64,000 nt of DNA, from assembly GCA_008501765.1 (NCBI GenBank), contig QQUE01000007.1, positions 496,001 to 560,000 of the forward strand, written 5' to 3'. The notes beneath the pieces are model-generated. The model saw only the letters and a list, made by a program, of their open reading frames with translations. It was not told where the DNA came from and made no database searches. A program made the translations under genes and the position numbers. Within the stretch, counting starts at the first letter, position 1. Each line of letters starts with the position of its first letter. Shown here piece by piece: positions 41,408 to 62,469 of this stretch. The DNA comes from Calditrichota bacterium (GTDB taxonomy: Bacteria > Zhuqueibacterota > Zhuqueibacteria > Zhuqueibacterales > Geothermadaptataceae).

Positions 41408-43126
41408 TTAGTATTGAAGCCATTTCATATCAACGATTGGAACAAGAGATTCACCTGAAAATTTCTTTGTGACAAACATCGAAATTTCCTGGGATTTTGC
41501 ACTGCTGTCAACTTCAATGTCCTGCAATAACTTATAGTTTATCGAAACAGGATATCGTTTTTTAAGCTCTGTAAGTTTATCTTCCAGCAAGGCCTGATGT
41601 TTCTCATGCAACAACAAATTGTGTGCTTCGGCTTCATATTTATAAAACCGGGTGGTATCCACGTTGGCTATATCCAACTCTCGCCACCGGTTCTTGAAAA
41701 ATTCTTGCAACTCAGCATCTGTGATTGTCAAATCATTAACAAACTGGCCTCGCTGCACATCATATGTCCACTTTCGTTCCCATATTCGCAGATCGTCTTT
41801 TATCGAAGTAGAATCCGCGAAGCCTTCTTTCTCGGCAATCGCAATGAAAGAAGTATTTTTAATCATACGGCCAATTTCAGTAATTAATCGTTCCCTAAAT
41901 TCTTTTGCGGACTGACTACCATTCAAATTTTTCCGATAAAAATTCATGTATTCCAAATAATCAGCAACAGAAATTGAGCTGTCATTGGTAGTAGCTAAAT
42001 TTTCATCAAGAATTCTGTTTATACTTTTTAAGTAGCCCGCAGCCGTATCAGTTGGTTGTTGAACCATTTCCAGAAGCGAGGTGGATCGCGGCAATCCACT
42101 TTGCACCCATTGGTACAATGCCGGGCTCAACTGCTCAACAATTTGCCCTTTCAGGCGAATATCTCTGGGCGTTAATACTGAATCCATCAGCGCTTGAGAA
42201 ATTCTATCTGCCCGAACATCAAACAGTCTTTCATACATCTTTTTGCGTTTTGGGCCATGTTTGAGCTCGTCCTCTTTGATTCCGTGCAGGTTAATATCCA
42301 AAATTTGTATTAACACGTAACCATCGCCATAAGGAATTGGATCGGAAGTTTTACCAATCTCCAAATTTTCGATAGCAGCCAGCACATTGGGCCGGATATC
42401 GTAAAAATCCATCCAGTCGGTTTCAAAGAACTTTTTATTTTTTAGAGGAACGTCCTGTTTTTTTAGCTGGTGTGAAATATAGTTTTCAAGGCTGGAGGTT
42501 TCCGTTTCCGTTTCCATTTTAATTCTTTGTGCTTCGCCGAGCGAAGTCACCGGCCACATGATCATCCGCCATTTTACGGTCGCTTTTTTGGTTGCTTCCT
42601 GCAGCTCTTCTTCGGGTACTTTTACTTTGCTGTAAACATATTTGTGATAGAATGCTTCCAATAAATCATGATTTTTACGACGTTTAACCCGTTTTACTAC
42701 GTAATCACTTTTATCTAATCCCTGTCGGTAGCCTTCATTTGCCAATAACAACTCATTAATCATGAAGTTTAGGTATACAAGCTTGGGATTCTCGCCGGCT
42801 CGCAAGGGTGCGAAACTGAATTCATAACTGAATTTAAACTCATCAGCCGTTATCGTGCGTTCACCGACGCGGGCAATAATTTTTTGCTCCGGATCTTGTT
42901 TTTCCTTATCCGAACAGGATAAAAAGTTCAAGAAAAATATTAAACATAACCACTCTGTCAGGGTTCGAAACCCTGACGAGGCTGTCGAAAAAGCGGGTAA
43001 ACCGATCGCTGAGCTTGTCGAAGCGCCCGGCGTTACCCCCAAATTTGGGCCCTTCGACAAGCTCAGGGTCCAAATTTTGAGGATTTTCAACAGTCTCGAC
43101 AGAGTTAAATTGAATTTATACATCAT
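41408..43126 (-). CDS. Parvulin/SurA-like lipoprotein with an in-frame palindromic insertion in its signal region
   Basis: A 572-residue protein. The ATG overlaps the stop of the gene before it (ATGATG), so the start is well fixed. Residues 1-17 (MMYKFNLTLSRLLKILK) and 57-71 (TEWLCLIFFLNFLSC, lipid Cys71) look like parts of a lipoprotein signal, split by about 40 residues translated from a repeat (LSLSKG...ASTSSAIGLPAFS). The body has a chaperone-like N-domain (VGERTITADEFKFSYEF, NFMINELLLANEGYRQGL) and rotamase-like segments (DPIPYGDGYVLIQILD). Together with the cargo genes on both sides it probably assists folding or secretion. Catalytic activity of the rotamase part is uncertain. Confidence 0.75.
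   Translation of the reverse strand: MMYKFNLTLSRLLKILKIWTLSLSKGPNLGVTPGASTSSAIGLPAFSTASSGFRTLTEWLCLIFFLNFLSCSDKEKQDPEQKIIARVGERTITADEFKFSYEFSFAPLRAGENPKLVYLNFMINELLLANEGYRQGLDKSDYVVKRVKRRKNHDLLEAFYHKYVYSKVKVPEEELQEATKKATVKWRMIMWPVTSLGEAQRIKMETETETSSLENYISHQLKKQDVPLKNKKFFETDWMDFYDIRPNVLAAIENLEIGKTSDPIPYGDGYVLIQILDINLHGIKEDELKHGPKRKKMYERLFDVRADRISQALMDSVLTPRDIRLKGQIVEQLSPALYQWVQSGLPRSTSLLEMVQQPTDTAAGYLKSINRILDENLATTNDSSISVADYLEYMNFYRKNLNGSQSAKEFRERLITEIGRMIKNTSFIAIAEKEGFADSTSIKDDLRIWERKWTYDVQRGQFVNDLTITDAELQEFFKNRWRELDIANVDTTRFYKYEAEAHNLLLHEKHQALLEDKLTELKKRYPVSINYKLLQDIEVDSSAKSQEISMFVTKKFSGESLVPIVDMKWLQY
42955..43080. repeat. Palindromic repeat unit inside a coding sequence
   Basis: It contains TCAGGGTT-CGA-AACCCTGA (42958-42976) and a perfect 15-bp inverted repeat CTGAGCTTGTCGAAG (43009-43023) / CTTCGACAAGCTCAG (43052-43066), with a smaller CCCAAATTTGGG inside. 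The GAGCTTGTCGAAG word is a widespread intergenic repeat in many bacteria; here it is read in frame as protein. Confidence 0.85.
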
Positions 43127-61928: not shown

Positions 61929-62469
61929 GCACTTTTCTCAACAAAAATTTACCAATTTCATGAGTTGCAAACTTTGACTCATCCTAATTTTCACTTCAAA
62001 TAATCGCTCAAGATTTGGCAAAGCCAGTGCCAGAAATTTGTGCAGCAAAATTTCTTTGTGGGACAAACAATTGCAAATCAATAATTTAGCACATTACAAT
62101 AGCATCGCATATTGATAAAAACCACCAATTTTTAATGTGAGAAAATAATTTGGTTACTGTTTCAAATCGGGATAAAAAGACGGTTTGAGAAATTCCAGGC
62201 GGGGATAAATATCAATAAATATTAGAGGACCTGATCGTTATTGTTCCGAATTTGCAGAATGTTCCAAAATGGGATTGAATCGGAAGTATCCCTGACAGAA
62301 ACTTGAACCCGTCAGGGGATTACCATGTTTTGAGTATATTAATACTACTTTGGCAAATTCGATTTTTCCAAAAAAGACCAGTATGTTCAAAAAACAACCC
62401 TGACAGGGCTTGGAGCCCTGTCAGGGTTAAGCTCGCTCCAGTCCATTTAATCTGCCAAAGTAGTATTAA
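61929..62469. other. Intergenic region with two palindromic units
   Basis: No gene is visible in 541 bases. It includes an imperfect CCCTGACAGAAACTTGAACC / CCCGTCAGGGG-type palindrome at about 62290-62318 and the MITE-like unit at 62338-62470. The part near 61929-62100 is plain AT-rich sequence, where the promoter of the 189-residue protein gene is expected. Confidence 0.55.

Follow-up and report, generated by a model that had tools for sequence, protein, structure and literature searches.

Known in-frame insertions and comparison with the present locus

In-frame palindromic or MITE insertions are listed for Wolbachia, Neisseria, enterobacteria, Yersinia, Coxiella, and archaea (PMC10969869, PMC2229807, PMC2759123, PMC5896051), so the statement in the first-pass annotation of this DNA that such insertions are rarely noted outside Rickettsia does not hold. 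In one Yersinia case described among the same papers a MITE forms part of the signal peptide, and autotransporters provide examples of very long bacterial signal sequences (PMC2805444). REP hairpins are known targets of insertion sequences, namely of IS1397, ISKpn1, IS621, and ISPsy8 (PMC1525189).

The Rickettsia RPE (Ogata et al. 2000, 2002, via PMC2229807, PMC10969869) is, like the element described here, a hairpin of 100-150 bp with terminal inverted repeats that lies in frame in unrelated protein genes; the likeness is one of kind, and homology to RPE families is not claimed. It belongs to another genome and is another element, its duplications are marked "?" in the review table whereas those found here are clear and 3 bp long, and nearly half of the Rickettsia RPEs are in genes as against 2 of 18 intact copies here, both in n-regions. 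The enterobacterial ERIC/RU-1 and Yersinia YPAL/RU-2 fusions, notably YPO1552 (Delihas, PMC2759123), form a comparable system. RU-2 gives residues 1-30 of YPO1552 and thus its own start, while at the present locus the element adds to the n-region and leaves the native start, core, and lipobox in place, and the empty site is found in congeners. The REP-targeting insertion sequences likewise insert into a palindromic repeat, so that elements become nested, but the element here is a 120-bp non-autonomous one with GAGACTGTYGAAAA ends. The older hairpin into which it was inserted resembles REP sequences (PMC3733652) as a 27-29-nt repeat, mostly intergenic, with up to 29 copies per genome; it differs from them in having no visible GTAG/CGTC end tag and in being located inside codons. 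Coxiella QMITE1 and QMITE2 (PMC5896051) are likewise MITEs overlapping ORFs, QMITE1 with 2-3-nt duplications, but their insertions in functional genes are at 3' ends and not at the N-terminus as here.

In-frame MITE fusions, signal peptides included, are already published, and the event is of a known kind that is rarely seen so cleanly. Three features are new here: the elements are nested, with an exact empty site; n-regions were used more than once; and the older hairpin has apparently been maintained. The ordered series (no hairpin, hairpin, hairpin with MITE) would show selfish DNA becoming coding sequence, and the exact empty site and another, independent case accompany it. The series suggests that insertions of this sort can survive in the cleaved n-regions of signal peptides, and the persistence of a coding hairpin across diverged species makes selection versus mutational self-correction testable.

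The lipoprotein gene and the inserted element

The window (the whole 64,000-nucleotide stretch of DNA that was analysed) contained on its minus strand a 572-aa ORF (41408-43126) that crossed the repeat without a stop. Its product showed a weak PPIC/rotamase similarity, below the Pfam cut-off, and had no match in NCBIfam or in a PDB profile search, and the gene would best be called a conserved lipoprotein and no more. The hydrophobic core and lipobox WLCLIFFLNFLSC were located at 42914-42952 (minus strand), with the lipobox Cys at residue 71 and invariant across 7 orthologues, which is the layout of a predicted lipoprotein signal peptide. Hydropathy of the core was the same with and without the insert.

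The MITE-like element, bounded by comparison of the genome copies, was 120 bp long (42978-43097, minus strand) with terminal inverted repeats GAGGCTGTCGAAAA / TTTTCAACAGTCTC, and was flanked by the target-site duplication GAC at 42975-42977 and 43098-43100. The element's middle held the CTGAGCTTGTCGAAG inverted repeat. The 15-bp arms reported earlier (CTGAGCTTGTCGAAG / CTTCGACAAGCTCAG) were located exactly, at 43009-43023 and 43052-43066, and extended to 20 nt with 95% complementarity (left arm CTGAGCTTGTCGAAGCGCCC, 43009-43028; right arm GGGCCCTTCGACAAGCTCAG, 43047-43066). The arm 15-mer occurred 28 times in the genome versus 0 for a reversed-pattern control. Minus frame 1 of the window element translated to RLLKILKIWTLSLSKGPNLGVTPGASTSSAIGLPAFSTA; stop-free frames were present on each strand, and the ORF therefore survived the insertion.

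The earlier proposal of a palindromic insertion in frame, with frame and lipobox preserved, was borne out, while its extent (about 40 residues, 42955-43080) was corrected to 42978-43097 plus the 3-bp duplication. The insert amounted to exactly 41 residues, since 120 + 3 = 123 nt make 41 codons, and Cys30 thereby becomes Cys71, the hydrophobic core being untouched. With the element and one GAC removed, the empty site translated to MMYKFNLTLSGFRTLTEWLCLIFFLNFLSC, with 30 residues to Cys30, a length as in the G002 orthologue, and both congeners lacked the 41 residues when the orthologues were compared as the first-pass annotation had suggested.

The element family in the genome

The genome contained 19 copies of the element, of which 18 were intact, each exactly 120 bp, with CTG directly before most of them and a perfect 3-bp duplication in most. 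The inverted ends measured 15-16 bp (GAGACTGTYGAAAA / TTTTCRACAGTCTC). Flanking triplets, counted by eye, were identical in 14 of the 19 copies and differed among copies (GAC, GTC, AAC, GGA, GTT, GAT), and thus represent target duplications and not element sequence. A model with CGAG...CTCG ends and a 1-bp duplication was dropped for one with 16-bp GAG...CTC ends and a 3-bp duplication, because the copies at non-GAC targets (AAC, GGA, GTT, GAT) fitted no other. With 120 bp, 19 copies, no transposase gene, terminal inverted repeats, and target-site duplication, the family has the characters of a MITE.

The intact copies fell into two subfamilies (10 and 8 members); 1 substitution separated the window copy from its subfamily consensus. 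Absence of indels as a sign of constraint was ruled out, as the copies were mostly young and in two subfamilies. Most copies were inserted in CCTG[AT]CAGG (CCTGWCAGG), that is, in a hairpin arm, and several were nested in a second, longer repeat with TACTACTTTGGCAGATT...AATCTGCCAAAGTAGTA ends. This longer repeat is a second MITE-like family, into which the 120-bp element was inserted several times (L025, L026, L027, L032); an intact hairpin AACCCTGACAGGGCTTGGAGCCCTGTCAGGGTT was also seen in the window at 62393-62428 within a longer repeat with ends like these. A search of the other 81 genomes of the phylum (E <= 1e-6) gave no match to the element, and the 120-bp family was found in one genome only among the 82. 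A literature search with the repeat and end sequences returned nothing relevant.

Two of the 18 intact copies were in genes, both in frame and both in signal-peptide n-regions, and the remaining ones fell outside the genes that were recognised by ORF length. In L036 and L029, ORFs that span the element were not accepted as fusions, since the native starts (MKQIKNILAVLL... and MHIRSANLEDL...) come after it.

A second coding insertion

Other genes with the element had been proposed as a check, and one was found. At G000:C8:105749-105868 a copy in the opposite orientation was located in frame in the n-region of a secreted amidohydrolase, between ATGGGAATTCCTAGC and GGCAGAGTTCAGAGCGTGCTGATC..., giving MGIPS[insert]GRVQSVLIVLLLLFLFPVPGSGQ. 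The upstream AAAAAAAAGGAAACTAAAATG resembled AAAAAGGAAAACACGATG of the G002 orthologue, the AAGGAAA-type ribosome site was conserved, and both orthologues were without the insert. This copy carried 9 substitutions relative to its subfamily consensus, some common to another copy, and the frame was still open over 1061 codons. Insertion in frame in unrelated genes (lipoprotein and amidohydrolase) with insert-free orthologues is the pattern expected of an RPE-like element, as judged from the predicted reading frames.

The older hairpin at the landing site

Once the element and one GAC were discounted, a 29-nt hairpin, CTCTGTCAGGGTTCGAAACCCTGACAGAG, was recovered across 42953-43104, made of a left part CTCTGTCAGGGTTCGAAACCCTGAC (42953-42977) and a right remainder GACAGAG (43098-43104) cut off by the element. 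The insertion sits in one arm of it, the CTGACAG half. The hairpin occupied n-region codons of the lipoprotein signal peptide, and same-site hairpins were present in the congeners (L002, L003): AACCCTGACAGGGTTTGAATTCCTGTCAGGG in the G001 orthologue and a variant hairpin in that of G002, both matching in position and frame, in proteins 67% and 66% identical. Orthologues outside the genus had no such N-terminal segment. Hairpins of this kind number only 5 and 3 in the two congener genomes, so that three separate hits are far less likely than descent from a hairpin in the ancestor of the genus. The second palindrome, taken in the first-pass annotation as part of the insertion, is instead this older landing site, ancestral in the genus and also present in the orthologues; the two palindromes are not one event and differ in age and origin.

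The hairpin family is a 27-29-nt repeat, mostly intergenic, with copy numbers of up to 29 per genome. A GTAG/CGTC tag was seen by eye neither at 42953 or 43104 nor at the other printed hairpins, hence the designation "REP-like" only. A 27-nt hairpin was also observed in G002 (L307, 1503-1529) in frame within a histidine kinase ORF (...KKSWDVNPDRVLNPVRIVASDCLSIT...), apparently inside the ATPase domain, as read by eye. A tandem hairpin series with CCTGACAGG... and CCTGCCAGG... alternating at a period of about 390 bp was present at G000:C4:43961-45162.

Proposed course of the insertion and alternative explanations

The account that we consider probable is that a 120-bp non-autonomous MITE, moved by a transposase presumably supplied in trans, entered an older REP-like hairpin, already present in the lipoprotein n-region codons, at its CTGACAG half. 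Three bp would have been duplicated on insertion, lengthening the gene by 123 nt or 41 codons, with the ORF kept open by the element's stop-free frames. Translation would begin at the ATG that overlaps the stop of the gene upstream and would continue through the hairpin, yielding a signal peptide with core and lipobox unchanged and an n-region 41 residues longer. The site would have been tolerated because n-regions are permissive and of variable length, come before the recognised core, and are cleaved off. A wider proposal, in which n-regions are a protein-coding refuge for hairpin-targeting MITEs, the compensated ancestral hairpin is a landing pad, and elements can accumulate with export kept when their length and duplication together are divisible by 3, is put forward tentatively and is rather unlikely to hold in full.

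Expression is the main doubt, given a very strong mRNA hairpin and a young insertion. The composite was far more stable than shuffles (RNA z = -7.8, DNA z = -5.5), and the predicted RNA hairpin of -74.2 kcal/mol begins about 26 nt past the lipoprotein start codon, within the first codons. A hairpin of this predicted strength near the start could hinder expression or be a substrate of RNase III, an enzyme that processes MITE hairpins in Neisseria (PMC2229807). The DNA event would then be as described, but the gene would be silenced or weakened, through ribosome blocking or RNase III cutting, and the frame would be a remnant. The lipoprotein frame is intact over 572 codons; with the window copy 1 substitution from consensus, such an open frame is uninformative on whether the protein still works. 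Against silencing, the amidohydrolase frame stays open despite its 9 substitutions, which suggests tolerance, and the old hairpin was already tolerated at the site in three species. Silencing was judged unlikely.

It is also possible, with a lower probability still, that selection maintains the older hairpin, perhaps even the composite as a whole, as an RNA or DNA structure, for example one pacing translation during membrane targeting. In three species, with orthologues of about 67% identity, the hairpin keeps both site and frame, and it folds in each of them at z about -6. When 14 pairs were scored over the three sequences, 93% of cells paired and 4 pairs were altered on both sides, a change seen in none of the slid controls, with three sequences only entering the comparison. 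The same pattern is, however, predicted by template-switching correction of quasi-palindromes or by replacement with another copy of the hairpin family, and more distant orthologues are without the hairpin.

The reading preferred above, with translation through the insert, depends on the start codon. An ATGA overlap of the stop of the upstream 1233-aa gene and the lipoprotein start (43123-43126, minus strand) was common to all three species, the window and both congeners. No ATG or GTG was present between codon 3 and the lipobox of the window ORF, and together these two features make a start at the overlap, with the ribosome reading through the insert, the best-supported reading. The lipoprotein signal is then likely to lie about 55 residues from the start. 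Translation beginning downstream of part or all of the element, at TTG29 or CTG56, would leave a short signal and a repeat that is mostly untranslated. TTG13, TTG23, TTG29, and CTG56 are in frame and a GAAGG stretch precedes TTG29, but TTG29 is still inside the element, CTG starts are rare, and the internal-start check proposed earlier found no ATG, GTG, or TTG after codon 29 as far as the lipobox, so this reading is improbable. Two independent palindromes without a mobile-element origin, or an assembly chimera, can be given practically no weight: all that speaks for it is that the sequence comes from one assembly, but 18 copies share their boundaries and mostly have perfect 3-bp duplications, which already refutes this, and the locus is in the interior of a 1-Mb contig.

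Related ends in other genomes

Searches by end sequence in the genome, in 62 class relatives, and in genome-contig and viral-contig collections returned short elements and single ends only, and no autonomous partner with matching ends. L194 (2363 bp) was rejected as an autonomous element, its 319-aa gene being nuclease- or phospholipase-D-like by eye and not a transposase, and it may be two short elements. A 522-aa ORF that resembled an IS1182-like transposase by eye (L056, 996-2564, in G019) had a short element with the same ends close by, with no matching ends seen around the ORF itself.

Short elements with the same end sequence, mostly with 3-bp duplications, also turned up outside the class and the phylum; the end type is thus widespread, unlike the 120-bp family. 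Those with GAGACTGTYGAAAAA ends measured 71-230 bp and came from many phyla (L070 1369-1516, L071 1377-1516, L158, L161, L184, L194, L218, L260, and L261), and 3-bp duplications were present in most. L071 also held an unrelated palindromic repeat. Several of the GAGACTGTYGAAAAA-ended elements followed CCTAAC, which resembles the core of an integron attC site.
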